DNA of 46,703 nt from Gemmatimonadaceae bacterium. Its GTDB lineage: Bacteria; Gemmatimonadota; Gemmatimonadetes; Gemmatimonadales; Gemmatimonadaceae. The DNA lies in the NCBI GenBank assembly GCA_024710705.1, contig JANJUF010000082.1:1-46703 (forward strand). Reading direction: 5' to 3'. The notes below the pieces were generated by a model. The model ran no database searches, was not told the DNA's origin, and saw nothing but the letters and a program-made list of their open reading frames with translations. Positions 12,851 to 36,309 of this stretch are shown one piece after another. A program made the position numbers and the translations under genes. Position 1 is the stretch's first letter; each line of letters starts with the position of its first letter.

Positions 12851-13649
12851 GCGCTCTCTCGCCGCCCTCGCCCTTGTGGCCTTCACCGCCGGCTGCGCCA
12901 TCTCGACCCAGCAAGAAGTCGAGATGGGTGCCGGATATGCCGCCGAACTCAACCGGCAGCTCCCCCTCGTGCAGGACGCCGAGCTCAACCGGTACATGAA
13001 CGTACTCGGCGACTCCATTGCCCGCATCGCCGACACGCGGAATCTCGACTGGCAGTTCTACATAGTGGACAGCCCTGACGTGAACGCCTTCGCGGTGCCG
13101 GGCGGGTTCATCTACATGAACCGCGGGCTGATCGAACGGGCCACCAACCTGTCGCAGGTGGCCGGCGTGCTCGGGCACGAGATCGGGCACGTCACGCAGC
13201 GTCATTCGGTGCAGCAGATGCAGAAGGCGCAGGGTGCCAACGTCGGCATCCTCGGGCTCTGCATCTTCCTGCCGAACCTCTGCGCCAGCCAGACCGGCCA
13301 AGCCGCCATCGGCCTCGGCGCCAACGCCGCCATGGCGAGCTTCTCGCGCTCCGACGAGGACGAGGCCGACAAGGTCGCGATCGCCTACCTCATCAGGGCG
13401 GGCATCGACCCCGCGGGCGTACCGGAGATGTTCCAGATCCTCCTGGACGAGCGGCAGCGGAAGCCCGATGGCCTGGAGACCTGGTTCCGCTCGCATCCGC
13501 TGGAGGAATCGCGGATCGAGAATGGTCGCGCGCGCATCGCCGCGTATCCGCCAGAGCAGTTGGTCGGGTTGATGAAGGATTCACCGGCCTTCCAGGCCTT
13601 CCAGCGGCGGCTGAAGTCGCTGCCGCCGTCGCCGCCGCAGTCGCGCTAG
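12849..13649 (+). CDS. M48 family metalloprotease lipoprotein
   Basis: This 266-residue periplasmic zinc protease of the M48 family (BepA/LoiP-like) probably has a role in outer-membrane protein quality control. A lipoprotein signal (MRSLAALALVAFTAGC, Cys16) is followed by FAVPGGFIYMNRGLIE. The zinc motif is HEIGH (His110, Glu111, His114) and the third ligand Glu172 lies in SDEDEADKVA, both standard for M48. LCIFLPNLC forms a Cys-containing hydrophobic insert. No TPR repeats follow, unlike BepA. It is transcribed divergently from the methyltransferase operon. Its stop overlaps the convergent purine nucleoside phosphorylase gene by four bases. Confidence 0.92.
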   Translation: MRSLAALALVAFTAGCAISTQQEVEMGAGYAAELNRQLPLVQDAELNRYMNVLGDSIARIADTRNLDWQFYIVDSPDVNAFAVPGGFIYMNRGLIERATNLSQVAGVLGHEIGHVTQRHSVQQMQKAQGANVGILGLCIFLPNLCASQTGQAAIGLGANAAMASFSRSDEDEADKVAIAYLIRAGIDPAGVPEMFQILLDERQRKPDGLETWFRSHPLEESRIENGRARIAAYPPEQLVGLMKDSPAFQAFQRRLKSLPPSPPQSR

Positions 13650-14470
13650 AGTCTCGCCACCCAGCGTTCGACCAAGCCGCAGAAGGCGTCCCCCGCCTTC
13701 CGCCCCTCTTCCATCACCTCGGCGTGATTCAGCGGCGCCTCGCTGATGCCGGCGGCGGGGTTGGTGATGCAGGAGACGCCCGCGACTTCCATCCCCATCG
13801 CCCGCGCCACGATTGTCTCGGGGACGGTGCTCATCCCCACGGCGTCGGCTCCGAGCGTGGCGAGCATGCGCACCTCGGCGGGGGTCTCGTAGGTCGGGCC
13901 AAGCAGGCCGGCGTACACGCCGCGCGCCATCGACAGTCCACCCTCGCGCGCCGCCGCCTTGAGCAGCGCCTGCAAGCGCGGTGCGTACGGCGCGCTCATG
14001 TCGGGAAAGCGAACATCCCCCGGCTCAAGCAACCCTTCCAGCGGATTCCGGAACTGCAGGTTGAGATGGTCCGTGATCATCATCAACGTGCCGGGCGGGA
14101 AAGCGCGGTTGATGCCCCCCGCGGCGTTGGAGACGAACAGCACCTTCGCGCCGAGCGCGTGGACCACGCGCACCGGGAAGGCGGCGACCTGGGCGCTGTG
14201 ACCCTCATACATATGAAAGCGCCCGGCCAGGAGCAGAACCTCCCGTCCGCCCAGCATGCCGCGGATGAGTTCGCCGCGATGCCCCTCCACGTTCGGCGCG
14301 TGGAAGCCCGGGATCTCCGCGTACGTCACCCGCGTGGCGCCACTGACCCGATCGGCGAGGCTACCGAGCCCGGAACCGAGCACGATTGCCGCGACCGGCG
14401 ACTGCACACCGAGCCGGGCGCGCACCGCATCGGCCGCCAGGCGCGCTGCCACGGCGCCGTGCGGGCTCAC
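13646..14470 (-). CDS. punA: Purine nucleoside phosphorylase (inosine/guanosine type)
   Basis: This enzyme splits inosine and guanosine with phosphate into hypoxanthine or guanine plus ribose-1-phosphate. The 274-residue product has the trimeric PNP family motifs: IVLGSGLGSLAD (phosphate loop), GHRGELIRG, GRFHMYEGH, VSNAAGGIN, PTYETPAEVRML, GMSTVPETIVARAMGM, and the base-binding region TNPAAGISEAPLNHAEV. The start is GTG 14470, which overlaps the adenosine deaminase stop in a GTGA. It is the last gene of the nucleotidase operon and acts on the inosine made by adenosine deaminase. Confidence 0.94.
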   Translation of the reverse strand: MSPHGAVAARLAADAVRARLGVQSPVAAIVLGSGLGSLADRVSGATRVTYAEIPGFHAPNVEGHRGELIRGMLGGREVLLLAGRFHMYEGHSAQVAAFPVRVVHALGAKVLFVSNAAGGINRAFPPGTLMMITDHLNLQFRNPLEGLLEPGDVRFPDMSAPYAPRLQALLKAAAREGGLSMARGVYAGLLGPTYETPAEVRMLATLGADAVGMSTVPETIVARAMGMEVAGVSCITNPAAGISEAPLNHAEVMEEGRKAGDAFCGLVERWVARL

Positions 14471-15510
14471 GCGACGCTCCGGCGCAGGGTATCGAACTCG
14501 GCGTCCACGCGGTTCAGTAGCGCGGCGCGCTCCGTGTCGGGCAGGAAGGCGTTGGCGAATCCGAGGCGGGCCAGGCGGCAGAGTTCGTCGAAGGTGAACC
14601 CGAGGTGCTTGGCCGCGAGCCCGTACTCGGTGACGAGGTCGGTGCCGCTCATCAGGCGATTGTCGGTGTTGATGGAGACCTGCAGCCCAGCGTCGAAGAA
14701 CGCGCGCAAGGGATGCGTATCGTATGAGGCCGCCGCACGCGTCTGCACATTGCTGGTCAGGCAGCACTCGATGGCAACGCCCTTCTCGCGCGCCTCGGAC
14801 ATCAACGCCGGATCGTCGATGAGCCGCGTGCCATGCCCGATGCGGTGCGCGTGGCACTCATGCATGGCGTCCGCCACCGAAGCCGCCCCATCCCCCTCGC
14901 CGGCGTGGCAGGTACAGGGAAGCCCGTGCGCGATGGCGTGGTCGAAGGCCGCCTTGTGCGCCGACGCCGGGTTGCCGGCTTCCCCGCCGGCGAGGTCGAA
15001 GCCCACGACGCCGCGGCCATGGTACTCCACGGCCAGCCGCGCGAGGTCGAGGGAAACGGACGGCGCCATGTTGCGGATCCCACAGACGATCACGCGCGAC
15101 ACGATGCCATACTCGCGCTCGGCGCGGTCGAGGCCGCGCAGCGGCGCCTCCACCGCCTGCGCGAGTGAGAGCCCGCGCTCCACATTCAGGACGGGCGCGT
15201 AGCGGGTCTCGAGGTACCGAATGCCTTCGGCGGCGCAATCCTCGGCCAGTTCGTAGGCGATGCGCTCCATCGCCTCCTCCGTCTGCATCACGCTCAGGGT
15301 GTGACCGAAGCGCGCGAGGTACTCCTCGAGATTTCGTGCATCATCCACCCGCATGTACTCGCGCAAGGCCTCGGCATCGTCCTCGGGCATCACCACGCGT
15401 TGATCGCGGGCCAACTCAAGCATGGTCTGCGGCCGCACCGAGCCGTCGAGGTGGCAATGCAGCTCGGCCTTGGGAATCCGCCGTAGCAATTCGCTGGACA
15501 GCATCGTCAC
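14467..15510 (-). CDS. add: Adenosine deaminase
   Basis: Adenosine deaminase converts adenosine to inosine and ammonia with a zinc-bound water. The 347-residue protein has the metal motif ELHCHLDGS (His18 and His20), ETRYAP, CHAGEG, the HRIGHG motif with catalytic His, and INTDNRLMSGT containing the zinc-binding Asp, all in family order. The start is GTG 15510, overlapping the stop of the small beta-grasp gene by four bases; ATG 15504 is an alternative. Its neighbours supply its substrate (nucleotidase) and use its product (purine nucleoside phosphorylase). Confidence 0.95.
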   Translation of the reverse strand: MTMLSSELLRRIPKAELHCHLDGSVRPQTMLELARDQRVVMPEDDAEALREYMRVDDARNLEEYLARFGHTLSVMQTEEAMERIAYELAEDCAAEGIRYLETRYAPVLNVERGLSLAQAVEAPLRGLDRAEREYGIVSRVIVCGIRNMAPSVSLDLARLAVEYHGRGVVGFDLAGGEAGNPASAHKAAFDHAIAHGLPCTCHAGEGDGAASVADAMHECHAHRIGHGTRLIDDPALMSEAREKGVAIECCLTSNVQTRAAASYDTHPLRAFFDAGLQVSINTDNRLMSGTDLVTEYGLAAKHLGFTFDELCRLARLGFANAFLPDTERAALLNRVDAEFDTLRRSVA

Positions 15511-15743
15511 TCGGCGGCATCCTCGCGGGCGGCGCGGGCGCTGACGATACGCATGACGAAACCGCCCGTGACCGGCGTGTCGGCGGCCACCGGCAGCCCC
15601 CGCGAGTCCACCACGGCGCGCGCACCGTTGCGCACGGCAGCCGCGGCTTCGGCGTCTACCGCGCCCACCGCCTCAAGCACCGTGCTGCCCGGCGGCACCG
15701 AGACGCCTGCTCCATTCACGAAGACGCGCAGGAGTTCACTCAT
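15507..15743 (-). CDS. Small beta-grasp-like protein of unknown function
   Basis: This 78-residue protein is joined to both neighbours by four-base overlaps (ATGA with the nucleotidase stop, GTGA with adenosine deaminase). Its pattern LRVFVNGAGVSVPPGSTVLEAV resembles the first hairpin and helix of ThiS/MoaD-like or 2Fe-2S beta-grasp folds. VVDSRGLPVAADTPVTGGFVMRIVSA could form the closing strands. It lacks the C-terminal Gly-Gly of sulfur carriers and has no Cys ligands for an iron-sulfur cluster. I do not recognise a named family. Its tight coupling suggests a structural or regulatory partner of purine salvage, which is inference. Confidence 0.7.
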   Translation of the reverse strand: MSELLRVFVNGAGVSVPPGSTVLEAVGAVDAEAAAAVRNGARAVVDSRGLPVAADTPVTGGFVMRIVSARAAREDAAE

Positions 15744-18700
15744 GGCAGGGCACGGATGCGCGGCGCACGCAGCGCCTCGGTCATCGTGAGGCGCCCGCCA
15801 GGGACGCGGCGAAGGTGCGCGACGAGGGCGTCGAGGTCAATCACTCCCAGCTCCTCGGGAGCGGAGCCCCCGGTGAGGCCGACGCCGTCGCCACCGCTGG
15901 CGATGAAATCGGACATGACGACCCGATAGCGGCGTCGGTCGTTGAGCGGCCGGCCATCGGCCATCACCGCACGGCGCAGGCGAGCGCCCGGGGCGGCCGT
16001 GGAATCGTACTCGAGCGTCACCCCACTGACGTGCACGTTCACGCGCGTGCCGCCGACCAGCCGCTCGAAGTAGGCCCGGAGCGCGTCACCGCGCACGGTG
16101 ATCCGGACGAGGCGGTTGGCGAAGGGGGCGATTTCGTGCAGGTCGCCGTAGGTCACGGGGCCGGCCCTCAGCTCGGCGCGAATGCCGCCGTTATTCATCA
16201 CGCCGACGTCGGCGTCGCCCGCCGCGCGTTGCGCGTCGGCGATGAGGTTGCCGAGCGCGTGCTGCGCGCCCTCCCGGGGGAAACGATCCTCGCTGGTGAC
16301 GATCACCTCGCGCACGCGCGCGGCCACCGCCGCCACCGCGCGCGCCACGAGCGGGTCGATCCCCGGATCGGGCGCGATGCTGTCGGAGACGACGGCGCGC
16401 ACCTCGGGTCGGCGCTGCACGGTGCCGGGCGCCAGCGCGAGATCCACGACGCCGAGCGCCCGCGTGCTCGAGCGCGCCTGCACGATGGGGATGCCATTGA
16501 CAATCGTGCCCACCGCCGAGTGCGTGTGCCCGCTCACGATGGCGTCCACCGCGCCCGTCGGCAGGGCCCGCGCCATCTCGAAGATCTCGCCGCGGCAGTC
16601 GTCGGGATCGCCGACGTTGCAGAACCCGCCGAGGTGCGCCACGACGATCACGACCGATGCGCCGCGCGCGCGGAGCGCCGCGGCGTGCCGGGCCACCACC
16701 GGTGCCGGATCGACGAAGCGCAGGTCGGCCACGTGGCGCGGCATGGTGGTCCGCGGTGTGGCCGGATCGGCGATGCCGACAATCCCGACGCGTCCCACCG
16801 ACGTGGTGAGGATCGTATCGTTGGGAATCCACTCCACGTCGCGGCCATCGGCATAGGTCACGTTGGCGCCAAGGATGGGCGCGGTGAGCTGCCGCATCCG
16901 CGCGCGCAGCGTGTCCTGACCGTAGTCGAACTCGTGGTTGCCCATCGCGTGGGCGGCGAAGCCGATGGCGTTGAGCACCGGCACCACCGCCGCACCGGTG
17001 GTGAGGTCGGAGGCCGGCGTGCCGGTGAAGAGGTCGCCGCCACTCAAGACGAGCGTAGCACACATCGGAGCGCACTCGGCTTGCGCCTGCCGGACCATCG
17101 TCGCGATCTCGGCGAATCCGCCACGATTGCCCCACGCGCCGTCGGGACGCGGCCGGAAGGCGCCGTGCATGTCGTTCATGGCGAGGAGCCGCAGCGTGCG
17201 GCGCGGCGGGAGGATCTCCCAGTTGCGAACGTACACATCAGCGGGTTCGAGCGTGCCGCGCCGCTTGATATCCTCGATGATGAGTTCGCGGATCTCGCGC
17301 GAGCCCTCATAGACGACCGGCGCGCCGCGAATCATGTCGTAGCCGCCCCCGCCGGAGGCACGGTAGCTGTTGAGCGCCACCGTGAAGCTGTCGGTGTCGG
17401 CGACGGCCCGACCGTTGCGCTCGAGCTTCGTGATGCGCGAGCCAATCGGCTGCGCTAGGTCCACCACGTAGTCGAGGCCAGCCAGCACATCGTAGTTGTA
17501 GCCTGGGATGCGGCGGTCGGTCGTGACGCGGAACTCGCCGTCCGGCCCTTCCTCCACCACCCAGTAGCGATTGCTGTGCTCTAGGAAGGCGCGGATCTGC
17601 GCGCCCGACAGCTTGAGCGCGCGCAGCGTGTTCTCATACGGATACAGCTCCACGATCCGCTCGACGGTGATGTTCCCGGCGTCGAACCGCGCGGCGGTGG
17701 AGAAGACCGAGGCCAGGCTCAACTCCGCGCCCGACTCGCGCCGCTGGACTTCCTGGATGAGGTCGATCATCGGGATGTCGGCACTGCGCGAGGAATCGCT
17801 GCGCCATTCCACGTTCGTGCGTCCGATGACGGCCGTGGAATAGCGGAGGGCCCCTTGGTGGGCGCGCTCCACGGCGCGGACCATCGCGCGCTGCTCAGGC
17901 CAGCCGCGGGCTTGCACTGTCTCGCCTCGCTTCGCGATCACCGTCCAGCGCCCGTCGCGGCGCTCCAGCTCAAGCGTTGCGATGGCGACGCTGGTTGCCC
18001 AGTTGCGGGGCTGCACCACCAGCACACCGTTCACCGTGGTGTCACTGACCTCGCGATGCGAGTGCCCGATGACGATGGCGTCAATGCCAGCGACTTCGTG
18101 AGCGACGCGGGCCATGGGATTCTCGCTTGGGAGCCCGGTGGCTACGGTGTCGTACGAGGTCACGCCATCGAGCCCCGCGTGCGCGACGACAATCACCACG
18201 TCGGCCCCCTCGGCGCGGGCCGCGGCCACCTGCGCCGGCAGCGCGGCGACGATGTCGGTCACCTCGAGGCGCCCGCGGAGGTGGTCGCGATCCCAGACCA
18301 TCGAACCGGGCGTTGTCGCGCCGATGATTGCCACCTTCACCCCGGCACGGGTGACCATCGTGCGCCCGGGATACTGGTGCCCGCCGTCAAGCCTCGTGGT
18401 GTTCGCCGCCAGGAAGGGGAAGCGCGCCTGCGCAACCGCGCGATCGAAGATGCCGAGCCCGTAATTGAACTCGTGGTTCCCCACCGCCGCGGCGTCGTAG
18501 CGCATCAGGTTCATGGCCGCGATCACGGGATGCGGGGCGAGCGAGTCCACGCGCCCGGCCACGTAGGTCATGGCGTTGCCCTGCAGCAAATCGCCGGCGT
18601 CCACAAGAATCACGCGGTTCCGCGCCACGCGCCGCAGCGAGTCGATGATCGTAGCGGCCCGCGCCAGTCCGCGCGTGGAGTCCACCCGGCCGGCGGCGTA

Positions 18701-18835
18701 GTCCCAGCCGCGCAGGCGCCCGTGGACGTCGGTGGTGGCAGCCACCTTGAGCGTCACCCGTTCCTGCGCGGCGGCAGGAGTCGCGGTGGAGGCGACCAGC
18801 AGTCCAACCGCGAGGATGAATCGAAGCGAGAGCAT
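15740..18835 (-). CDS. Two-headed secreted nucleotidase (CpdB-like plus UshA-like, YfkN type)
   Basis: This 1031-residue exported protein contains two complete metallophosphatase/5'-nucleotidase units in tandem. After a signal peptide (MLSLRFILAVGLLVASTATP...), unit 1 has TTDVHGRL, DAGDLLQGN, GNHEFNYG and GHSHRE. Its C-terminal domain (YPYENTLRALKLSG, then LNSYRASGGGGYDM) resembles 2',3'-cyclic-nucleotide 2'-phosphodiesterase/3'-nucleotidase CpdB. Unit 2 has MNDMHGAF, SGGDLFTGTP, GNHEFDYG and GHTHSAVG, and a UshA-like C-terminal domain with MNNGGIRAEL and SDFIASGGDGVGL. The layout resembles Bacillus YfkN, known to act on cyclic nucleotides, 3'- and 5'-nucleotides. It would release phosphate and nucleosides in the periplasm. 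I chose ATG 18835 for the signal peptide. The gene heads the operon. Confidence 0.9.
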   Translation of the reverse strand: MLSLRFILAVGLLVASTATPAAAQERVTLKVAATTDVHGRLRGWDYAAGRVDSTRGLARAATIIDSLRRVARNRVILVDAGDLLQGNAMTYVAGRVDSLAPHPVIAAMNLMRYDAAAVGNHEFNYGLGIFDRAVAQARFPFLAANTTRLDGGHQYPGRTMVTRAGVKVAIIGATTPGSMVWDRDHLRGRLEVTDIVAALPAQVAAARAEGADVVIVVAHAGLDGVTSYDTVATGLPSENPMARVAHEVAGIDAIVIGHSHREVSDTTVNGVLVVQPRNWATSVAIATLELERRDGRWTVIAKRGETVQARGWPEQRAMVRAVERAHQGALRYSTAVIGRTNVEWRSDSSRSADIPMIDLIQEVQRRESGAELSLASVFSTAARFDAGNITVERIVELYPYENTLRALKLSGAQIRAFLEHSNRYWVVEEGPDGEFRVTTDRRIPGYNYDVLAGLDYVVDLAQPIGSRITKLERNGRAVADTDSFTVALNSYRASGGGGYDMIRGAPVVYEGSREIRELIIEDIKRRGTLEPADVYVRNWEILPPRRTLRLLAMNDMHGAFRPRPDGAWGNRGGFAEIATMVRQAQAECAPMCATLVLSGGDLFTGTPASDLTTGAAVVPVLNAIGFAAHAMGNHEFDYGQDTLRARMRQLTAPILGANVTYADGRDVEWIPNDTILTTSVGRVGIVGIADPATPRTTMPRHVADLRFVDPAPVVARHAAALRARGASVVIVVAHLGGFCNVGDPDDCRGEIFEMARALPTGAVDAIVSGHTHSAVGTIVNGIPIVQARSSTRALGVVDLALAPGTVQRRPEVRAVVSDSIAPDPGIDPLVARAVAAVAARVREVIVTSEDRFPREGAQHALGNLIADAQRAAGDADVGVMNNGGIRAELRAGPVTYGDLHEIAPFANRLVRITVRGDALRAYFERLVGGTRVNVHVSGVTLEYDSTAAPGARLRRAVMADGRPLNDRRRYRVVMSDFIASGGDGVGLTGGSAPEELGVIDLDALVAHLRRVPGGRLTMTEALRAPRIRALP

Positions 18836-18978: not shown

Positions 18979-19117
18979 CTCGCAGCTTCCGAAAAGTTGC
19001 CAACCCCTCCCCTCCATCCGAGCTTTCCCGGTACACGACCGTGACACCCCCCCTGCTTCTCGCCGTGACTCAATCCGAACAGATTCCTCGCGTGACGATC
19101 ACCCTGCTGGGACACCG

Positions 19118-19741
19118 ATGCGACCGTTGATCATCGGCGTCGCCGGCGGGTCCGGATCCGGCAAGACGACCGTCGCGCGCCGCGTGGCGGACGCCCTCGT
19201 CGGGGCCAAGGTCGCCTTCCTCGATATGGACGCCTACTACCGTGATCGCGCCCTCTCGCACGAGGAGCTGCGGCATCTGAACTGGGATCACCCCGATGCG
19301 TTCGACCTCGAACTGCTCGCCAGCCAGCTGGAGCTTCTGGCCGCGGGCCAGGCGATCGACAAGCCGGTGTACGATTTCGTCTCGCATCGCCGGAAGCCCG
19401 TCCCCGAGCGGATCGAGCCGGTGGACGTGATTGTGATCGACGGAATCCTGCTGCTCGTGGACGAGCGGATCCGCTCGCGACTCGACATCAAGGTCTTCGT
19501 GGATACCGACGCCGACATCCGCGTGGTGCGGCGCATCCGGCGGGACGTGGCCGAGCGCGGACGTCCCATCGAGGAGATCCTCGAGCAGTATCTCACCACC
19601 GTGCAGCCCATGCACCTGCAGTTCGTCGAGCCCAGCAAGCGCTACGCCGACCTCATCATCCCGCGCGGTGGGGACAACGCGGTCGCCATTGACCTGCTGC
19701 TCGCCGCCATCAACCGTCGTCTCTCCGACCCACGCCCGTGA
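19118..19741 (+). CDS. udk: Uridine kinase
   Basis: Uridine kinase phosphorylates uridine and cytidine in pyrimidine salvage. The 207-residue protein has the P-loop GVAGGSGSGKTT (residues 7-18), the substrate motif FLDMDAYYRD, NWDHPDAFD, YDFVSHRRKP and the DGILLLVDERIR region, all in family positions. The start is ATG 19118. Its stop overlaps the phoB start in a GTGA, so it is the first gene of an unusual udk-phoB-phoR operon. It lies divergent from the nucleotidase operon that produces nucleosides, which fits a joint role in reusing scavenged nucleotides. Confidence 0.95.
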   Translation: MRPLIIGVAGGSGSGKTTVARRVADALVGAKVAFLDMDAYYRDRALSHEELRHLNWDHPDAFDLELLASQLELLAAGQAIDKPVYDFVSHRRKPVPERIEPVDVIVIDGILLLVDERIRSRLDIKVFVDTDADIRVVRRIRRDVAERGRPIEEILEQYLTTVQPMHLQFVEPSKRYADLIIPRGGDNAVAIDLLLAAINRRLSDPRP

Positions 19742-20448
19742 CGGCCCCAGCCCACGCCGCCGACCGCATCCTCGTGGTGGATGACGAACCCGACATCGTC
19801 GCGCTCGTCGTCTACCACCTCGCCAAATCCGGCTACAAGGTCTCCTCGGCCTCCACCGGGACCGACGCCCTCGCCATCGCCAAGCGCGACCGGCCGTCGC
19901 TGATCGTGCTCGACCTCATGCTCCCCGGAATGTCGGGCTTCGACGTGCTGGCCAAGCTGCGCGAGGACGCGGGGACCGCGAACATCGCCGTGCTGATGCT
20001 CACGGCGCGCAAGGACGAACCGGATCGCATCAAGGGACTCGAACTCGGGGCCGACGACTACCTCACCAAGCCCTTCTCGCCGCAAGAGCTCGTGCTGCGG
20101 GTCGGCGCGATCCTCCGGCGCGTGGCGGGCGGCGGAGAGCCGACTGACCTCTTGCAGATCGGGCCCATCCGTGTGGATCGGTCGGCGCACCGCGTCACGG
20201 TAAACGACCACGAGATCGAGCTCACGCCGACGGAATACAAGCTCCTCCTCACCCTCGCCGAACGGCGTGGACGGGTCCAGGCCCGCGCGCACCTCCTCGA
20301 GTCGGTCTGGGATGCCGCGCCCGACATCCAGACACGCACGGTGGACATGCACATCCAGCGCCTGCGGACCAAGTTGCATCCGGCCGGTGACTTGATCGAG
20401 ACCGTGCGCGGCTTCGGGTATCGGCTGAAGGGCGGCAAGGACGGGTGA
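19738..20448 (+). CDS. phoB: Phosphate regulon response regulator (OmpR/PhoB family)
   Basis: This 236-residue transcription factor has a receiver domain (acidic pair Asp15-Asp16, phospho-acceptor Asp59 in LIVLDLMLPG, Lys in LTKPFSP) and a C-terminal winged helix (ELTPTEYKLLLTLAERRGRV, then TRTVDMHIQRLRTKL and VRGFGYRL). I assign PhoB rather than another OmpR member because of the adjacent PhoR-type kinase, the Pho-box-like sites in front of the porin, the TonB receptor and the DUF47-Pit-Ppk operon, and the phosphate genes around it. It starts at GTG 19738, overlapping udk, and overlaps phoR by four bases. Confidence 0.9.
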   Translation: MTAPAHAADRILVVDDEPDIVALVVYHLAKSGYKVSSASTGTDALAIAKRDRPSLIVLDLMLPGMSGFDVLAKLREDAGTANIAVLMLTARKDEPDRIKGLELGADDYLTKPFSPQELVLRVGAILRRVAGGGEPTDLLQIGPIRVDRSAHRVTVNDHEIELTPTEYKLLLTLAERRGRVQARAHLLESVWDAAPDIQTRTVDMHIQRLRTKLHPAGDLIETVRGFGYRLKGGKDG

Positions 20449-22178: not shown

Positions 22179-22219
22179 TTGTAACGGCCTGTTACAGGTT
22201 CGTTGCACTGCTGTAGAGG
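22179..22219 (+). promoter_or_regulatory. Pho-box array upstream of the TonB receptor
   Basis: Plus strand: TTGTAAC (22179-22185), 3 bases, CTGTTAC (22189-22195), 4 bases, TCGTTGC (22200-22206), 4 bases, CTGTAGA (22211-22217). The last three units are in exact 11-base phase. A possible -10 (TAGAGG, 22214-22219) lies 18 bases after CTGTTAC, close to the 19 bases between CCGTTAC and TAGATT at the porin promoter. It sits 19 bases after the phoR stop codon and about 100 bases before the receptor's ATG. Confidence 0.65.
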
Positions 22220-25118: not shown

Positions 25119-25122
25119 CGAA

Positions 25123-25150
25123 GCGCCACCGGGCAGAGACACGGTGGCGC
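25123..25150 (+). terminator. Stem-loop after the TonB receptor gene
   Basis: GCGCCACCG and CGGTGGCGC form a perfect 9-base stem with a 10-base loop, 45 bases after the receptor stop. There is no T-run. It could be a terminator, a processing point or a regulatory dyad just behind the candidate Pho box. Confidence 0.5.
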
Positions 25151-26629: not shown

Positions 26630-26678
26630 TAGATTGCGAGAGCGGCCGGTGCCCGATCCGGGCGCCGGCCGCTCTCGC
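26630..26678 (+). promoter_or_regulatory. TAGATT box with a 20-base-pair stem-loop
   Basis: TAGATT (26630-26635) is directly followed by GCGAGAGCGGCCGG (26636-26649), which pairs perfectly with CCGGCCGCTCTCGC (26665-26678). A T-G pair and a further GCCCG/CGGGC stem close on a 3-base loop. It may end the beta-helix transcript, or form a stable 5' leader hairpin for the lipoprotein gene, whose ATG lies 17 bases further. Confidence 0.6.
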
Positions 26679-26695
26679 ATCCTCCAGCCTTCGCC

Positions 26696-30040: not shown

Positions 30041-31071
30041 CGCCGCTGTGCCCACAGCGAGACGTACACCAGCGCCACGAGCACCGGCACTTCGATCAGC
30101 GGGCCGACGACGGCGGCCAGCGCCTCGCCGGAGGTGATCCCGAACGTGCCGATCGCCACCGCAATCGCGAGTTCGAAGTTGTTCCCCGCCGCCGTGAAGC
30201 TCAGCGAGGCCGTGGTCGGGTAGTCGAACCCCAACCGCTTGGCGCTCCAGAACGCGAGCCCGAACATCACCAGGAAGTACAGCGTGAGCGGCACGGCCAC
30301 CCGCGCCACGTCCCACGGCGTTTCGATGATGCGATTCCCCTGCATCGCGAACATCAACACGATGGTGTACAGCAGGCCGATGAGTGCCGTGGGACCGATG
30401 CGCGGCAGGAACGTGCCTTCATACCACGCCTCGCCGCGGCGCTTCACGAGGCTGCGCCGCGTGTACCACCCCGCGAAGAGTGGCACGCCCAGGAAGATTC
30501 CGACGCTCTTGGCGATGTCGCCCATCGAGATGTCGAGCGCGGCGGTCTCGGCGCCCATCCAGCCCGGGACGGTCACGAGGAAGAGATAGCCGAGCAGCGA
30601 GTAGGTGAGGATCTGGAAGACGGAGTTGAGCGCCACGAGGACGGCAGCGATCTCATTCGAGCCGCAGGCGAGCGTGTTCCAGATCAGCACCATGGCGATG
30701 CAGCGCGCGAGCCCGATGAGGATGAGCCCGTTGCGGTACTCCGGGAGGTCGGGGAGGAAGAGCCAGGCGAGGGCGAACATCACGAGCGGGCCGAGCACCC
30801 AATTGAAGAACAGCGAGGTGCCGAGGAGCTTGGTGTCGGCGGCGTGGCGCCCGATGGACTCGTAACGGACCTTGGCCAGCACCGGATACATCATCCACAG
30901 CAGGCCGATGGCGATGGGCACCGAGACGCCGGCGACCTGCACGGCGTCAAGCGCGGCGCCGAGTCCGGGCCAGGCGCGGCCAAGCCCGAGGCCGAGGGCC
31001 ATGGACGCGAAGATCCACAGGGGCAGGTAGCGATCGAGGGTGCTGAGACGCGTGAGGACGGGGGAGGCCAT
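30001..31071 (-). CDS. arsB: ACR3 family arsenite efflux transporter
   Basis: ACR3 is an inner-membrane arsenite/proton antiporter, distinct from ArsB of E. coli. The 356-residue protein has about ten hydrophobic segments and the family features PIAIGLLWMMYPVLAKVRYE, the essential Cys in GLARCIAMVLIWN, and SLSFTAAGNNFELAIAVAIG. The start is ATG 31071, with ATG 31080 as an alternative; neither has a clear ribosome site. It is divergent from ArsR with an AT-rich operator between. No arsenate reductase is present in the window. Placement beside phosphate genes makes sense because arsenate enters through phosphate uptake. Confidence 0.95.
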   Translation of the reverse strand: MASPVLTRLSTLDRYLPLWIFASMALGLGLGRAWPGLGAALDAVQVAGVSVPIAIGLLWMMYPVLAKVRYESIGRHAADTKLLGTSLFFNWVLGPLVMFALAWLFLPDLPEYRNGLILIGLARCIAMVLIWNTLACGSNEIAAVLVALNSVFQILTYSLLGYLFLVTVPGWMGAETAALDISMGDIAKSVGIFLGVPLFAGWYTRRSLVKRRGEAWYEGTFLPRIGPTALIGLLYTIVLMFAMQGNRIIETPWDVARVAVPLTLYFLVMFGLAFWSAKRLGFDYPTTASLSFTAAGNNFELAIAVAIGTFGITSGEALAAVVGPLIEVPVLVALVYVSLWAQRRYFPESVSASSGA

Positions 31072-31082
31072 TGGGGACATTG

Positions 31083-31098
31083 GACGGAAGACGGAAGG
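31083..31098. repeat. Heptamer repeat ACGGAAG x2
   Basis: GACGGAAGACGGAAGG abuts the start of the ACR3 gene, upstream in its direction of transcription. It is the third intergenic site with this tandem heptamer. Confidence 0.75.
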
Positions 31099-31133
31099 TG
31101 AACGGCGAACTGCGCTTGCCTCCCGCCGTTCGG

Positions 31134-31163
31134 TTGCATATCGTATATGCGATACCATATATA
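31134..31163 (+). promoter_or_regulatory. arsR promoter with embedded palindromic operator
   Basis: TTGCAT (31134-31139) and TATATA (31158-31163) are spaced by 18 bases; the ATG follows 8 bases later, so the arsR transcript is nearly leaderless. Between the boxes lie two interleaved dyads, GCATAT-CGT-ATATGC (31136-31150) and TATCG-TATATG-CGATA (31139-31154), well placed for repression by ArsR. The AT-rich stretch stands out in a GC-rich region and also faces the ACR3 gene. Confidence 0.75.
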
Positions 31164-31171
31164 TAAGTGCC

Positions 31172-31552
31172 ATGACCACGCTTGCACCAGCCACCCGCTC
31201 GGCGCTTCGCGGGATTGCCGCGCTTCATGAAGCGTGTGGTGATCCGGCTCGGCTGCGGTTGCTGAACCTGCTCGCGGGGGGCGAGCTCTGCGTGTGCGAC
31301 CTCGTGGAGCTCACGGGGGAGTCGCAGCCCTTTGTCTCGCGCCATCTGGCGCGGCTGCGCGAGGCCGGGCTCGTCTCGGTGGAGCGACGCGGCAAGTTCG
31401 CGTACTACCAACTCGCCGAGCTCGGCTCGCACGCGCAACGCCAGCTCGACGCGGTGCTCGATAGCCTCCACGCCGCCGACCCGCGCCTCCGGCGCGAGCG
31501 CGATGCCGCCGCCACCTCGGCCGCCAAGCGCGGCGCCACGCCCTGCCGGTAG
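31172..31552 (+). CDS. arsR: ArsR family metalloregulator
   Basis: This 126-residue winged-helix repressor contains GGELCVCDLVELTGESQPFV, the classic arsenite-sensing motif with Cys40 and Cys42 at the start of the recognition helix. VSRHLARLREAGLVSVERRG and FAYYQL follow. Cys22 could supply the third arsenic ligand. Binding As(III) should release it from the operator at 31136-31154, inducing ACR3 and its own operon. The ATG at 31172 was chosen because upstream sequence is promoter. The metallophosphoesterase gene follows after 6 bases. Confidence 0.94.
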   Translation: MTTLAPATRSALRGIAALHEACGDPARLRLLNLLAGGELCVCDLVELTGESQPFVSRHLARLREAGLVSVERRGKFAYYQLAELGSHAQRQLDAVLDSLHAADPRLRRERDAAATSAAKRGATPCR

Positions 31553-31558
31553 GGATCG

Positions 31559-32311
31559 ATGACCGTCCAACTCGCGCTGCTCTCCGACGTCCACGCCAAC
31601 TTGCACGCCCTCGACGCCGTGCTGGCCGACATCGGCGCGCGCATTGGCATCGCCGGGCGCTATCACCTGGGCGATCTCGTCGGGTACTCCCCCTTCCCCA
31701 ATGAAGTGGTGGAGCGGATCGAGTCGGAGTCCATTCCCGGGGTCAGCGGCAACTACGACTCCACCGTGGCGCATCGCTACGCCCACTGCGGCTGCCGCTC
31801 CGAGAACCCGATCCAAGAGGCGGAGGCGCACGAGAGCTTCGCGTGGACACTGGCGAACGTCACCGAGACCACGCGCCAGCGCCTCGGGGCCCTCCCGCAT
31901 CGGTTGGACCTGAGGCCGCTGGGCGGCCACGCCGCCGGTCCGACGGTGATCCTCCTGCACGCCACGCCGGTGAACAACCTCGTGTACGTCACCGAAGACC
32001 GCCCCGACGACTTCCTGCGCAAGATGGCCGCGCAGGCTGGCGCGAAGGCCGGCGATGTGATCGCGTTCGGCCACACCCACAAGCCGTGGAACCGTCTCGT
32101 GGATGACGTGCTGTTCGTGAACACTGGAAGCGTCGGTCGCCCGAAGGATGGCGATCCGCGCGCGGGATGGAGCCTGCTCACCCTCGGCGACGGCATCCCG
32201 CGCGCCGAGCAGATCCGTGTGCCCTACGATGTCGACGCGGCCAGCGCCGCCGTCCTCGCGGCCGGTCTGCCGGCGGCCTTCGCCGAGACGATCCGCACCG
32301 GACGCACCTGA
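31559..32311 (+). CDS. Metallophosphoesterase (calcineurin-like family)
   Basis: This 250-residue two-metal phosphoesterase shows the family motifs in order: LLSDVHANLHAL, YHLGDLVGYSP, VSGNYDS, LLHATP, GHTHKPW and NTGSVGRPKDGDPRAG. These give all expected metal ligands (Asp, His, Asn, His-x-His). The pattern resembles YfcE/ApaH-like cytoplasmic phosphodiesterases. No signal peptide is seen. It starts 6 bases after arsR with AGGG just upstream, so it is in the arsenic-regulated operon. Whether it acts on an arsenic- or phosphate-related substrate is unknown. A Cys pair in HCGCRSEN is unusual for the family. Confidence 0.88.
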   Translation: MTVQLALLSDVHANLHALDAVLADIGARIGIAGRYHLGDLVGYSPFPNEVVERIESESIPGVSGNYDSTVAHRYAHCGCRSENPIQEAEAHESFAWTLANVTETTRQRLGALPHRLDLRPLGGHAAGPTVILLHATPVNNLVYVTEDRPDDFLRKMAAQAGAKAGDVIAFGHTHKPWNRLVDDVLFVNTGSVGRPKDGDPRAGWSLLTLGDGIPRAEQIRVPYDVDAASAAVLAAGLPAAFAETIRTGRT

Positions 32312-32323
32312 GGCGCCGCGCGC

Positions 32324-34516
32324 CTAGCCGGTAAAGACCGGGAACGCCGCACTCGAGCTCGGCGGACGCCCCGGCACGCCGCGCGACTGATCGGGCCGCA
32401 GCGGACTCTGGTCCACGGTGAAGGCGCCGCTCTCGCGACTCGCGCCCCAGGAATCGCGCAGCAGCATGCGATGCGTGGAGCGCTCGCCGTGCTCGCCCGG
32501 GTGACGCTGCACGTAGCTGCCGTCGGGCTGCAGGTCCCAGGCCTGGCGGTTGTCGGCCAGGCAGACTTCAAGGACCGTCTGCAGGCGTCGCTTGAAGGTC
32601 GGGTTGGCCACCGGTGTGACCACCTCGACGCGCCGGTCGAGGTTGCGCGGCATCCAGTCGGCCGAGCCGAAGTAGTACTCGGGCTCCCCGACGTTGTCGA
32701 ACATCCACACCCGCGAATGCTCGAGGAAGCGCCCGATGATGCTGATCACGCGGATGTTCTCGGAGAGACCGTCGACGCCCGGGCGCAGGCAGCAGATGCC
32801 GCGGACGATGAGATCGACCTGCACATCGGCCCGCGAGGCCTCGTAGAGGGCGCCGATGATCTCGGCGTCCACGATGGCGTTCATCTTGGCGATGATGCGC
32901 CCGCCGCGCCCGGCACGGGCGTGCTCGGTCTCGCGGGCGATGAGCTCGAGGATGCGCGCGCGCATGTTCACCGGCGCCACGAGCAGGCGGCGATACTGCG
33001 TCTGCCGCGAGTAGCCGGTGAGGGCGTTGAACAGGTCGCTGACGTCGGCGCCGATGGCCTCGTCGCAGGTGATGAGCCCCAAGTCGGTGTAGATGCGCGC
33101 GGTGCGCGTGTTGTAATTGCCGGTGCCGATGTGCACGTAGCGGCGGATGGCGTCCGCCTCCTTGCGCACCACGAGGGCGGTCTTGGTATGGGTCTTGAGC
33201 CCCGGCAAGCCGTACACCACGTGTACGCCGAACGATTCCAGCGTACGCGCCCACGCGATGTTGTTCACTTCATCGAAGCGCGCCTGCAGCTCCACCAGCA
33301 CGGCCACCTGCTTGCCGCGCTGCGCCGCCTCGGTGAGGGCCTGCACGATGGCGCCGTCGCCCGAGGTGCGGTACAGCGTGATCTTGATGGCCAGCACGTG
33401 CTCGTCGCGTGCCGCGCTCTCGATAAACGTCTCCACCGACGCGCCGAAGGAATCGAAAGGATGGTGCACGAGGATCTCGTTCTCGCGCACCACGTCGAAG
33501 ATTGACCGCGTGGTGTCGCGCAACTCCGGCGGCACGTGCGGGATGAGCGGCGGCTCACGATGCTCGGGGAACTCGAGCCCGCTCAGCGGAAAGAGGTCGC
33601 TGGCGTCGAGCAGCGGTCCGGGCTCGTGCACTTCGCGCGCCGAGAGCGGCGCCATCTCCGGCGCCTCGCTGGCGCGCAGTTCATCGAGCAGCAGGTCCTT
33701 GATGTGGGCTGGCGTTCCCTCCTGCACCTCGAGCCGCACGACCTCGCCAAAACGGCGCTGGAAGAGCTGCTCCTCGATCATCGCGAGCAGGTCCTCGGGC
33801 TCCTCGGTGTGCGAGATCTCGAGATCCGAGTAGCGCGTGAGCCGGAAGGTGTAGCAGCCCAGCACCTGCATGCCCGGGAACAGCGCGTCGAGCCGCGAGG
33901 TGATCAGCGCCTCCAGCGGCACGAAACTGTTGGGACGTCCCGTCGGCACCCAGCGCGGGAGGCTCTTGGGCACCTTCACGCGCGCGAACCGCACATCCCC
34001 GCGCTCCGGATCGCGCAGCTCCACGGCCAGCGAGAGCGAGAGGTTGGAGATGTACGGGAAGGGATGTCCCGGATCCACCGCCAGCGGCGTGAGCACGGGG
34101 AAGATGGACTCGGCGAAGTACGTCTCGAGCGTGGCGCGTTCGTCCGGCTGCAGCTCCTGCGGCTGCAGGAGACGCACGCCGATGCCGGCCAGCGCCGGGA
34201 GCAGCGTCTCCACCAGCAGCGTGCGCGCCCGCGCATTGAGTTCGCGCACGCGGAGGTCAATGAGGTCCAGCTGCTCCGCAGCCGTCAGGCCGTCGGGCGG
34301 GGTCTGGAGTACGCCGGCCGAGAGCTGCCGTCGCAGCCCGGCCACGCGCACCATGAAGAACTCGTCGAGGTTCGAGCTGAAGATGGCCAGGAACTTCACG
34401 CGCTCGAGCAGCGGGGTCCGCTCATCCTCGGCCTCGTGGAGCACCCGTGCGTTGAACTCGAGCCAGGAGAGCTCGCGGTTCAGGTAGCCAGGGTCCTTCG
34501 AGGCGAGGGGGATCAC
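32324..34516 (-). CDS. ppk1: Polyphosphate kinase 1
   Basis: Ppk1 makes polyphosphate from ATP reversibly. The 730-residue protein has the N domain (YLNRELSWLEFNARVL, AIFSSNLDEFFMVRVAGL), the head domain and two phospholipase-D-like C domains. Likely catalytic histidines are His462 in YVHIGTGNYNTRTARIY and His600 in LEHSRVWMF, corresponding to His435 and His592 of E. coli. The tail after about residue 665 is Ser/Pro/Arg-rich and not conserved. It starts at GTG 34516, 1 base after the pit stop, as third gene of the DUF47-pit-ppk operon under a Pho box. This couples import to storage. Confidence 0.96.
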   Translation of the reverse strand: MIPLASKDPGYLNRELSWLEFNARVLHEAEDERTPLLERVKFLAIFSSNLDEFFMVRVAGLRRQLSAGVLQTPPDGLTAAEQLDLIDLRVRELNARARTLLVETLLPALAGIGVRLLQPQELQPDERATLETYFAESIFPVLTPLAVDPGHPFPYISNLSLSLAVELRDPERGDVRFARVKVPKSLPRWVPTGRPNSFVPLEALITSRLDALFPGMQVLGCYTFRLTRYSDLEISHTEEPEDLLAMIEEQLFQRRFGEVVRLEVQEGTPAHIKDLLLDELRASEAPEMAPLSAREVHEPGPLLDASDLFPLSGLEFPEHREPPLIPHVPPELRDTTRSIFDVVRENEILVHHPFDSFGASVETFIESAARDEHVLAIKITLYRTSGDGAIVQALTEAAQRGKQVAVLVELQARFDEVNNIAWARTLESFGVHVVYGLPGLKTHTKTALVVRKEADAIRRYVHIGTGNYNTRTARIYTDLGLITCDEAIGADVSDLFNALTGYSRQTQYRRLLVAPVNMRARILELIARETEHARAGRGGRIIAKMNAIVDAEIIGALYEASRADVQVDLIVRGICCLRPGVDGLSENIRVISIIGRFLEHSRVWMFDNVGEPEYYFGSADWMPRNLDRRVEVVTPVANPTFKRRLQTVLEVCLADNRQAWDLQPDGSYVQRHPGEHGERSTHRMLLRDSWGASRESGAFTVDQSPLRPDQSRGVPGRPPSSSAAFPVFTG

Positions 34517-34517
34517 G

Positions 34518-35552
34518 CTAGGAGGTGCGAATGGCGGAGACGATGAGGTAGGAGATCGCCGCCACCGCCGCCGACGCGGGGATGGTGATGACCCAGGCCC
34601 AGATCATCCGGCTGGCCACGCCCCAGCGCACGGCCGAGAGACGGTGCGTGGCACCGACGCCAACGATGGCGCCGGAGATGGTATGCGTGGTGGAGACCGG
34701 GATGCCGAGGAAGGTGGCGAGGAAGATCGCCGAGGCACCGCCCGTCTCGGCGCAGAAGCCCCCGATGGGTCGCAGCTTGGTGACGCGCGAGCCCAGCGTG
34801 TGCACGATGCGCCAGCCACCCATCAGGGTGCCGAGGGCGATGGCCAGGTGCGCGCCGAGCTTGATCCAGAAGGGGATTTCGTCGCCGCCCGGCAGGTAGA
34901 AATGGCGCAGGAACCCCGTCTCGTTCACGAAGTAGGCCTGCCCTGCCACCAGCAGCGACACGATGATGCCCATCGTCTTCTGGGCGTCGTTGGCGCCGTG
35001 GGAGAGCGAGAACAGCGCCGAGCTGGTGATCTGCATGCCGCGGAACAGCGGGTCGAGCTTGGCCGGTCGCTGGTTCCGGAAGATCCAGCTGGTGCCGACC
35101 ATAAGTCCCCAGCCGGCGGCCATGCCCACCATCGGCGAAACGACGATGAAGATGATGGTCGGGACCCAGCCCGAGAGCAGGACGGCACTGAATCCCGCCT
35201 TGGTGACGGCGGCGCCCGCGTAGCCGCCGATCAGCGCGTGCGACGAGCTGGACGGAATGCCATACCACCAGGTGAGCAGGTTCCACGCGATCGCACCGAG
35301 GAGCCCGGCAAGGATCACGTCCGGGTTCACGATGGCCAGGTCGATCATCCCCTTCCCGATCGTCTTGGCGACGTTCGTGTCGAAGAGGAACAGCGCGAGG
35401 AAGTTGAAGGTCGCCGCCCAGACCACGGCGGTGAAGGGCGAGAGCACCCGGGTCCCCACAATCGTCGCGATGGAGTTCGCGGAATCGTGGAAGCCGTTGA
35501 TGTAGTCGAAGATGAAAGCGACACCGACGATCGCGAGGATGTACCAGACCAC
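34518..35552 (-). CDS. pit: Low-affinity inorganic phosphate transporter (PiT family)
   Basis: This 344-residue inner-membrane phosphate (metal-phosphate) symporter has the two inverted family repeats: FIFDYINGFHDSANSIATIV near the N-terminus and SLSHGANDAQKTMGII in the middle. WWYGIPSSSSHALIGGY and GIPVSTTHTISGAIVG are the repeated helix-breaking motifs. About nine to ten membrane segments are visible. I chose GTG 35552 (VVWYILAIVGV), 7 bases after the DUF47 stop. DUF47-pit pairs are common in bacteria and archaea. Arsenate is a known alternative substrate of PiT carriers, which fits the arsenic genes nearby. Confidence 0.94.
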   Translation of the reverse strand: MVWYILAIVGVAFIFDYINGFHDSANSIATIVGTRVLSPFTAVVWAATFNFLALFLFDTNVAKTIGKGMIDLAIVNPDVILAGLLGAIAWNLLTWWYGIPSSSSHALIGGYAGAAVTKAGFSAVLLSGWVPTIIFIVVSPMVGMAAGWGLMVGTSWIFRNQRPAKLDPLFRGMQITSSALFSLSHGANDAQKTMGIIVSLLVAGQAYFVNETGFLRHFYLPGGDEIPFWIKLGAHLAIALGTLMGGWRIVHTLGSRVTKLRPIGGFCAETGGASAIFLATFLGIPVSTTHTISGAIVGVGATHRLSAVRWGVASRMIWAWVITIPASAAVAAISYLIVSAIRTS

Positions 35553-35559
35553 GGATCGC

Positions 35560-36171
35560 TCAGGAGTTCTTGAGGGAAATGCTCTCGAGCACGTTCGCGA
35601 CGTCCTCGCACTCATCCACCGCGTGCTCGAGGTTGTCGTAGATCTCCTTCCACTTGATCACTTCGAGGGCGTCGGGCTTGCCGGCGAAGAGGTCGGCGAT
35701 GGCCTTGGAGTAAATCGCGTCGGCCTTCTCCTCGAGATCCTTCACCTGGCGCGCCGCCTTGTGCACCGCCGACGAGTTGCGGATCTCCTTCACGCCCACG
35801 GAGAGGACGCGGGCGCATTCGACGAGCACGTCCATCAGGGCGATGGCGTCGTCTCGGCGCTCGGTGATGCGGAACATCACGGCGCGGCGAGCCGTCCCGT
35901 CCATCAGGTCCACCACGTTGTCGAGCCGGTTCGCGAGCATATGGATGTCCTCGCGGTCCAGCGGCGTCACGAAGCTGCGGTCGATGCGCTGCATGATCTC
36001 GTAGGTCAGCTTGTCGGCGGCATGCTCCTCCGCCTTCACCTTGACCACGAGTTCCTCCACGCGGGAGGGTTCATTGAAGAGGTCACGCAGGAGGGCGGCC
36101 GAGGTCGTCAGGCGCGCCGAGAGCTGGTCGAAGAGGCCGAAAAAGCCTTCATCCTTCGGCAGAAATCTCAC
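35560..36171 (-). CDS. DUF47 family PhoU-like protein
   Basis: This 203-residue all-helical protein of the DUF47 (PhoU-related) family is thought to regulate the Pit transporter encoded after it. Helical segments show the family pattern: FFGLFDQLSARLTTSAALL, EEHAADKLTYEIMQRI, TPLDREDIHMLANRLDNVVD and VIKWKEIYDNLEHAVDECED, with acidic metal-binding residues. I start it at GTG 36171, giving VRFLPKDEGFFGLF, which matches family N-termini. The ATG at 36279 lies inside the predicted -10 box and cannot be used. First gene of the Pho-box-controlled DUF47-pit-ppk operon. Confidence 0.9.
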   Translation of the reverse strand: MRFLPKDEGFFGLFDQLSARLTTSAALLRDLFNEPSRVEELVVKVKAEEHAADKLTYEIMQRIDRSFVTPLDREDIHMLANRLDNVVDLMDGTARRAVMFRITERRDDAIALMDVLVECARVLSVGVKEIRNSSAVHKAARQVKDLEEKADAIYSKAIADLFAGKPDALEVIKWKEIYDNLEHAVDECEDVANVLESISLKNS

Positions 36172-36274
36172 GATTGGGGGTCCGCTCGGGGCGGCTCGGA
36201 AAAGGTGTTCGGCGAACCCGGTAGGACCGAGTTCCAGAGCCGTGAAATTACGCCCCATCCGGGGCGAACGGCAA

Positions 36275-36309
36275 ACCATAGAAGAGGGACTGTAACAGAA
36301 CCGTTACCG
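36275..36309 (-). promoter_or_regulatory. Pho box and -10 element of the DUF47-pit-ppk operon
   Basis: Minus strand: CGGTAAC (36309-36303), 4 bases, CTGTTAC (36298-36292), 11 bases, TATGGT (36280-36275). The 7-4-7 repeats followed by about 11 bases and a -10 box are the canonical PhoB layout. GTAACGG, a short spacer and CTGTTACAG are shared with the site before the TonB receptor. Confidence 0.7.

Follow-up and report, generated by a model that had tools for sequence, protein, structure and literature searches.

The DNA examined here (the window) is a stretch of 46,703 nucleotides from contig JANJUF010000082.1 of a Gemmatimonadaceae bacterium (assembly GCA_024710705.1). It has a GC content of 68.6% and belongs to a 3.0-Mb genome assembled in 137 contigs with a completeness of 87.6%. 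Between positions 13646 and 36309 it carries a probable phosphorus-acquisition island that encodes a PhoB-PhoR regulator pair, an outer-membrane cassette, the importer Pit, and a phosphate-binding protein PstS. An earlier note, made from the sequence alone, had described this region as one regulon for phosphorus scavenging, import, storage and sensing with arsenic defense built in. Searches with Pfam and NCBIfam profiles, by which the gene families are named, find every family of that note at its place. Overlooked in the note were the gene for a 203-residue lipoprotein (lip203), the metallophosphoesterase gene at 31559-32311, and the apparent membrane anchor of PstS. The core features are the following.

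13646 to 14443, minus strand: purine nucleoside phosphorylase (PNP; NF006054, 335.8 bits, cut-off 218); start approximate, open reading frame extending to 14857
14467 to 15510, minus strand: adenosine deaminase (ADA; TIGR01430, 326.3 bits, cut-off 216.55)
15740 to 18835, minus strand: nuc2, a secreted two-domain nucleotidase, CpdB-like and UshA-like, in which Metallophos and 5_nucleotid_C match two stretches each
19030 to 19046, minus strand: Pho-box-like repeat between the nucleotidase gene and udk (scan for TGTNAC pairs, see below)
19118 to 19741, plus strand: udk, uridine kinase (NF004018 and TIGR00235, both above cut-off)
19738 to 20448, plus strand: phoB-type response regulator (Response_reg and Trans_reg_C; best model TIGR02154, 247.9 bits, below the cut-off of 296.2)
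20445 to 22160, plus strand: phoR-type kinase (HAMP, HisKA and HATPase; PnpS and TIGR02966 phoR_proteo score best but do not reach their cut-offs)
22180 to 22207, plus strand: Pho-box-like repeats before the TBDT gene (same scan)
22315 to 25077, plus strand: TonB-dependent receptor (TBDT; PF07715, PF13620/13715 and PF00593); reading frame open from 22267
25102 to 25129, plus strand: Pho-box-like repeats before the beta-helix gene (same scan)
25215 to 26624, plus strand: beta-helix lipoprotein of 469 residues, ElpS/FII-like by description, lipobox LAAC assigned by eye; AlphaFold2 model with pLDDT 92.8
26635 to 26679, plus strand: perfect GC-rich hairpin lacking a run of T
26696 to 27307, plus strand: lip203, NTF2-like at best; model with pLDDT 90.3
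27318 to 28418, plus strand: solitary, N-terminally anchored PstS (TIGR00975, 248.2 bits, cut-off 205)
28391 to 30040, plus strand: ppx (Ppx-GppA; PF02541; TIGR03706, 261.6 bits, below the cut-off of 307); start uncertain
32324 to 34516, minus strand: ppk1, with four Ppk domains (TIGR03705, 821 bits, cut-off 465.85)
34518 to 35615, minus strand: pit (PHO4; PF01384, 304.6 bits)
35560 to 36279, minus strand: DUF47, or PhoU_div (PF01865, 94.6 bits)
36291 to 36308, minus strand: Pho-box-like repeat before DUF47-pit-ppk (same scan)

The nucleotidase, whose start at 18835 and signal peptide were assigned by eye, contains the motif pairs DVH/GNHE and DMH/GNHE. Between two hydrophobic segments of PhoR lie, as judged by eye, some 130 residues of periplasmic sequence. 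The names PhoB and PhoR find support in the adjacency of the two genes and in the Pho boxes.

The island was compared in a sample of 17 genomes of the genus; labels with G denote compared genomes (G000 being that of the window), and labels with L denote fetched loci. Gene order was traced by tblastn with the window proteins against the genus genomes and against 80 loci from named genomes, of which L002, L003, L004, L005, and L028 were taken as G006, G014, G003, G008, and G001 and not counted twice. The order in the genus is nuc2, then udk-phoB-phoR-TBDT-beta-helix-lip203-(pstS)-ppx, then ppk-pit-DUF47-rhomboid, and then dnaK. It is kept, up to the contig limits, in all 15 genomes (15 of the 17) that have a match to the beta-helix gene, the island being split across contigs in G008 and G016 and cut short in G002 and G004. 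The contig of G013 stops inside the TBDT gene, and the status of its PstS, Pit, and beta-helix protein is not scored as absence. Conserved clustering in relatives, set beforehand as a test of the proposed island, is found across the genus. Among the matches listed, the nearest named relatives of the beta-helix gene come from metagenome-assembled genomes of Gemmatimonadota, several of them called Gemmatimonadaceae. The slot between lip203 and ppx is without pstS in the assembled sequence of G004, G009, G010, and G012, and in other genera of the family (G021, G024, and G034) the corresponding slot holds pstS followed by pstC. In G007 (L130), a genome with the Pst pump, phoR adjoins ppx, and the cassette and pstS are absent from the slot. 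Locus L121 (G031) combines in one block two beta-helix genes, a Porin_O_P gene, a phoR match, and pstS.

The main oddity of the island is the absence of PstC and PhoU, at which the words "solitary PstS" in the earlier note hinted without developing the point. PstS is indeed solitary in the window genome, where no PstC above cut-off and no PhoU is found (PstB was not searched for). Within the genus, PstC scores above cut-off in only 3 of the 17 genomes (G007, G009, and G014) and is missing from 14. In each of these three, a PstA-like second match (PstA was judged solely through second matches of the PstC model) lies beside PstC, and two PhoU-domain matches are found on the same contig. Matches to PstC are weak and far under cut-off in the one-contig G011, the 7-contig G015, and the 3-contig G005; profile searches find no PhoU in G011 or G015. 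Within the genus, only genomes that also have PstC show a complete PhoU. A PhoR match is present in 17/17 genomes (partial in G002, on two contigs in G004, in two frames in G014). The apparent loss of PstC with PhoR kept can, like the gene order and the boxes at four promoters described below, be read from the sequences themselves. The two phoR frames of G014 (L103; contig 48, 94245-95958), a genome with a canonical pst operon, reflect a frameshift or an assembly error. Pit and DUF47 are each found in 15/17 genomes, the exceptions, G002 and G013, having contig ends there. PstS is above cut-off in 12/17: the solitary form in 11, and the canonical form in G009 and, beside the solitary one, in G014. 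This leaves ten genomes in which PstS is present and PstC is not, including G011 (one contig, stated completeness of 100%), G015, and G005.

The island of G010 (L111) includes a partial PhoU-domain match between ppx and acr3 (contig 1, 14691-14840), which may be left over from a pst-phoU operon since lost. In G005, a 606-residue frame (contig 1, 1959975-1961294) combines Na/Pi cotransporter matches with a weak PhoU-domain match and possibly represents a second importer of phosphate in this PstC-less genome. The species tree was built from ten concatenated proteins, with support from the Shimodaira-Hasegawa-like approximate likelihood ratio test (SH-aLRT) only and with G002 and G013 sparsely filled. 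In it, each of the two basal branches of the genus includes solitary PstS, and the Pst-plus genomes are G007 with G009 and, separately, G014. The canonical PstS proteins of G009 and G014 group together as sisters, the rows closest to them being those of G039, a member of another family (support 99/96); G017, of the same family as G039, joins them only deeper in the tree. Since the nearest neighbor of these two proteins belongs to another family, the pump has perhaps been regained within the genus, as far as one gene tree can suggest.

The alignment of PstS comprises 32 distinct rows of at least 250 residues; shorter and identical rows were dropped, and L117 and others were judged by motif only. 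The 11 solitary proteins form one clade in the gene tree (support 100/100) with a long stem branch, and they occupy the slot where relatives carry pstS-pstC. The window PstS aligns with the E. coli PstS structures. Of the phosphate ligands of the E. coli protein (T10, F11, S38, D56, R135, S139, G140, and T141), it keeps T10, S38, D56, R135, G140, and T141, with L at position 11 and T at 139; T10, D56, R135, G140, and T141 are kept in 11/11 solitary proteins. Position 137 is acidic in all 21 other PstS (D in 20, E in 1) and in none of the 11 solitary ones, which have R (8, including the window), S (2), or P (1). Since altering the D137 salt link reportedly (Yao, 1996) had no effect on phosphate binding in E. 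coli, binding may survive the change at 137. The N terminus is a hydrophobic anchor without a lipobox in 11/11, as judged by pattern and hydropathy only; the lipobox pattern is found in 15/21 other PstS versus 0/11 solitary ones. What can be read from these proteins is a PstS in the apparent old pst slot, with most phosphate ligands and a predicted membrane anchor. The frame is intact in all 11, and the ratio of nonsynonymous to synonymous substitution rates (dN/dS), 0.45 for the pair G001/G008 and 0.13 to 0.26 for three other pairs, suggests that selection still acts on the protein. In G019, from another genus, and in L023, its neighbor in the TBDT tree, pstS leaves no room for pstCAB before ppx, and both D at 137 and a lipobox-like cysteine are retained; pstC of G019 lies on another contig. 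At L117 and L023, both from outside the genus, pstS is the only gene between lip203 and ppx, and its product has D at 137 together with a lipobox-like cysteine. Proteins of this type are plausible intermediates toward the solitary form.

Boxes were sought, in the window and in the 220 bp upstream of starts across the genus, as two TGTNAC half-sites 11 bp apart, a form of the Pho box after the E. coli consensus. Within the window, 5 such pairs, spread over 4 places and all before pho genes, have 1 mismatch or none (one site scored on both strands), compared to a mean of 0.78 and a maximum of 4 in 40 Markov shuffles of the window. Other spacings at this level give no pairs at 7, 8, 9, or 12 to 16 bp and 2 at 10 bp. 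At 2 mismatches, the 18 pairs in the window are not above chance (12.95 by shuffling, maximum 21). The repeats that the earlier note placed before the TonB receptor recur, at no more than 1 mismatch, in 12/16 genomes, and those before DUF47-pit-ppk in 7/13 genus genomes. The beta-helix gene has such a box in 8/15 and udk in 3/15 (13/15 at 2 or fewer mismatches). No box with 1 mismatch or fewer is seen upstream of lip203 (0/14), pstS (0/12), ppx (0/16), ppk (0/15), dnaK (0/13), degP (0/10), ADA (0/13), or acr3 (0/4). Pooled over TBDT, the beta-helix gene, and DUF47, 27/44 starts have a box versus 0/97 of these eight control sets, whose 12 pstS rows include the canonical G009 copy (24/41 versus 0/89 with the window excluded); at 2 or fewer mismatches the counts are 37/44 and 4/97, all from related genomes. 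Counted outside the controls are the rhomboid gene (1/14, in a region shared with DUF47 in G004), udk (3/15), nuc2 (1/2), the porin gene (0/2), ffh (0/1), and lon (0/2).

These counts support PhoB control of four putative promoters, before udk and the nucleotidase gene, TBDT, the beta-helix gene, and DUF47-pit-ppk, with lip203, pstS, and ppx apparently downstream of the third and pit and ppk downstream of the last. ADA, ppx, and pstS, which have no box of their own, could be expressed by read-through from the promoters in front. The hairpin after the beta-helix gene, whose stem is kept in 13/14 genus loci despite sequence change, may set the ratio of the beta-helix mRNA to the downstream genes. 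As to the single regulon of the earlier note, it finds good support at the four promoters with Pho-box-like repeats, the arsenic genes probably lie outside it, and the membership of the porin is weak.

The beta-helix gene has at least 575 related stretches. Its product has no match among Pfam or NCBIfam families, and its sequence finds nothing in PDB better than an E value of 0.037. For lip203, whose alignment has 40 rows, there is no PDB match at E≤0.001 and no NCBIfam family. A fold-based function was considered for both proteins and dropped: the models are good, but neither matches PDB at that threshold. In G004, G005, and G012 (L110, L095, and L113), TBDT, the beta-helix protein, and lip203 each form one clade (SH-aLRT 100 in 3/3 trees) that stands apart from the rest of the genus. 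In the species tree, G005 and G004/G012 belong to different clades, and their phoR, as well as pstS of G005, is ordinary. A shared divergent clade between ordinary neighbors suggests that the three genes were swapped as one block without change of place. A joint function of their products is thereby indicated, and lip203 becomes a candidate third component of an outer-membrane system for phosphorus uptake. Among the 50 of the 80 relative loci that are not named Gemmatimonadota, 8 (L037, L039, L041, L062, L065, L071, L073, and L076) have a phoB and a phoR match within the fetched stretch, a loose count, since regulators of this kind resemble each other. Relatives of TBDT and the beta-helix gene lie side by side in Bacteroidota, too.

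Further genes in and around the island are the following.

3602 to 4903, minus strand: Porin_O_P (OprP-type) gene (PF07396, 109.7 bits), an outlying and doubtful island member
4919 to 4947, minus strand: weak Pho-box-like triple repeat before the porin gene
30001 to 31194, minus strand: ACR3 arsenite exporter (TIGR00832, 427.7 bits); start uncertain, probably outside the regulon
31040 to 31552, plus strand: arsR (PF01022); start uncertain, probably outside the regulon
31559 to 32311, plus strand: YfcE-like metallophosphoesterase (PF12850)
36315 to 37091: rhomboid gene, just past the range of the earlier note

The earlier note had proposed an OprP-type porin with a Pho box of its own. The gene is there, and its homologs sit inside the island in G012, G016, and G031; the box is weak, consisting of two overlapping pairs with 2 mismatches (P = 0.03) that are not seen in G012, and so, also in view of the OprP gene of Flavobacterium discussed below, is the place of the gene in the regulon. 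Beyond the island, a frame at 37088-39214 on the minus strand matches NAD-specific glutamate dehydrogenase (PF10712, 602 bits). It was rejected as lying antisense to a gene at 37253-39184 on the plus strand, named dnaK-like from neighbors that are 85 to 98% identical and from PF10712 being a family known as an antisense artifact.

The island is real, conserved, and of a known kind; what seems new is the form of its sensing and import arm. The closest counterpart is phoBR-TBDT-FII (PUSIV) of Flavobacterium johnsoniae (Fjoh_0542-0549), where, as in the window, phoR/phoB lie beside a TonB receptor with a CarboxypepD_reg domain and an IPR011050-type lipoprotein, with an OprP gene nearby (PMC8115612). 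Phosphate depletion strongly induces the TBDT and FII genes of Flavobacterium (log2 of 8.0 and 9.9), and the OprP gene of the cluster is given there as not induced (log2 of -1.3, p 0.25); the same source reports plant-associated Bacteroidetes as lacking PstSABC and FI/FII/FIII as 31 to 36% identical to ElpS (PMC8115612). Compared to PUSIV, the window adds the nucleotidase, ppx, ppk, pit-DUF47, and lip203 and keeps the anchored PstS. Its beta-helix protein is likened to Fjoh_0546 and ElpS by description, not by sequence comparison. ElpS of Caulobacter is a surface lipoprotein of phosphate starvation, and a gene for a TonB receptor co-occurs with its gene; the Caulobacter system differs in the release of ElpS through the type II secretion system and in the receptor Cc0171, reported as not phosphate regulated (PMC2996285). 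With the canonical PstSCAB-PhoU-PhoBR system, the window has in common a PhoB-type regulator, a PhoR-type kinase, the 11-bp repeats, and PstS. It differs from that system in that PstC and PhoU were not found in its genome, PhoR has a periplasmic stretch, and PstS is apparently anchored and is altered at position 137. Adjacent Pit and DUF47/PhoU_div genes are known as a pair; in the window, a Pho box seems to govern the pair, and ppk comes after it. More than one kind of PstS occurs in nature, as in Synechococcus, which has the Pst complex. Three PstS homologs are reported in Synechococcus WH8102 (PMC10846223), and in Xanthomonas, where the Pst complex is present, PhoX is an extra one (PMC5439949). 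No title was found on a solitary, orphan, or PhoR-linked anchored PstS or on PhoR without PstSCAB, which is weak evidence of novelty, most subscription papers being outside reach.

On balance, we consider the region a PhoB-controlled phosphorus-acquisition island of Gemmatimonadota, most members of the genus having lost the Pst pump and PhoU, and give this reading about two chances in three. Phosphate starvation would activate PhoB and switch on the island genes. The secreted nucleotidase would free phosphate from nucleotides outside the cell, with ADA and PNP handling the nucleosides, while TBDT, the surface beta-helix lipoprotein, and lip203 would capture phosphorus compounds at the outer membrane. 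Pit, with its PhoU-like partner DUF47, would import phosphate across the inner membrane, Ppk would store it as polyphosphate, and Ppx would release it. The anchored PstS, with no ABC pump to feed, would hold phosphate at the inner membrane, on its outer side.

Several observations weigh against this reading. The half-site form was picked after inspection of the window, and co-expression of lip203 and pstS is only putative because a strong hairpin precedes both. PhoU-domain matches above cut-off are present in the Pst-minus genomes G010 (the partial match, 39.9 bits) and G005 (24.1 bits). Among Pst-minus genomes, G001 and G010 have no box at DUF47; at 1 mismatch or fewer, the genus difference between Pst-minus and Pst-plus genomes is 7/12 versus 0/3 (p 0.20, uncorrected for kinship), and outside the genus the box with up to 2 mismatches is found in 5/18 Pst-plus and 0/2 Pst-minus genomes. 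Some solitary PstS proteins have replacements at ligand positions (F11 to L in 2/11, S38 to T in 3/11, and S139 to T in 5/11). G004, G010, and G012 keep PhoR with no PstS in the assembled slot. In mirror-tree comparisons, PstS shows no special signal with the periplasmic stretch of PhoR (partial r of 0.21) and covaries with ppx (0.77), phoB (0.70), the cytoplasmic part of PhoR (0.63), and ppk (0.62).

For the anchored PstS itself, the role we rank first, although at somewhat less than even odds, is that it supplies phosphate to Pit. Ranked second, and distinctly less likely, is that PstS, left behind after the loss of PstCAB and PhoU, acts as a co-sensor through the periplasmic part of PhoR. 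Supply is placed above co-sensing because the mirror-tree result and the three PstS-less genomes (G004, G010, and G012) speak against a sensor that is obligatory; as support for co-sensing, the mirror-tree analysis was discarded. A tentative rival, about as likely as co-sensing and compatible with phosphate supply by PstS (the odds are not exclusive), is that DUF47 and Pit have replaced PhoU and Pst as a putative flux sensor restraining PhoR, with PstS outside sensing. The pair is retained in 15/17 genomes, among them the three PstS-less ones just named, the two genomes without a match having contig ends there. The box at DUF47 is commoner where Pst is missing: at up to 2 mismatches it occurs in 10/12 Pst-minus and 0/3 Pst-plus genomes of the genus, and at up to 1 mismatch in 7/14 versus 3/21 of all genomes (p 0.053, uncorrected for kinship). 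However, DUF47 precedes pit in most examined Pst-plus relatives as well, which does not suggest any special replacement. That PstS is a decaying relic seems unlikely: its absence from the assembled slot of four genomes, the long stem branch, and the dN/dS of G001/G008 would fit decay, but the frame is open in 11/11, most ligands are kept, the anchor is common to all, and the three other pairs show lower ratios. It is still less probable that PstS serves a PstCAB missed by the assembly or the models; the incompleteness of the window genome and the want of a PstB search leave some room for this, but the weakness of the PstC matches in G011, G015, and G005 and the lack of PhoU in G011 and G015 argue otherwise.

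Two further readings concern the rest of the island. The cassette might import a non-phosphorus ligand, such as a glycan or metal, and merely be Pho controlled. The weak likeness of the beta-helix model to carbohydrate-acting proteins and tailspikes (none at E≤0.001 in PDB) points this way, but the cassette is fixed between phoR and ppx in the genus and adjoins phoBR in Flavobacterium, too, and we regard such a cargo as doubtful, at roughly one chance against three. The inclusion of arsenic defense in one regulon, as in the earlier note, is very improbable. In the window and in G005, acr3, arsR, and the metallophosphoesterase gene do lie inside the block, and acr3 is found there also in G010 and G014. 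However, these are only 4 of the 17 genomes; ACR3 is above cut-off in 9/17 and lies outside the island in the remaining ones, and none of the 4 island copies of acr3 has a box. The arsenic genes thus appear not to be a fixed part of the island.

The way in which PhoR senses phosphate is unsettled, and most accounts of it start from the Pst pump and PhoU. PhoR of E. coli has no periplasmic sensor domain, and its kinase is on after deletion of any pst gene or of phoU (PMC5775613), for which reason a Pst-less lineage would need some other control. Hints from the literature on the signal point in opposite ways, as PhoR is reported to read extracellular phosphate through PstSCAB in Caulobacter (PMC11208175) but an intracellular signal in Salmonella (PMC11389368). 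A survey of Gemmatimonadota gives pstSCAB as the chief route for phosphate (PMC10581226), which makes the genus of the window an exception. With PhoR in 17/17 genomes, PstC missing from 14/17, and no more than an altered PstS left in 10 genomes among those 14, the genus offers a natural experiment on PhoR sensing, for which G014 and its sister G010, of which only the former has Pst, are a suitable comparison. If the anchored PstS were a co-sensor, a transporter-based phosphate sensor would have turned into a direct one.

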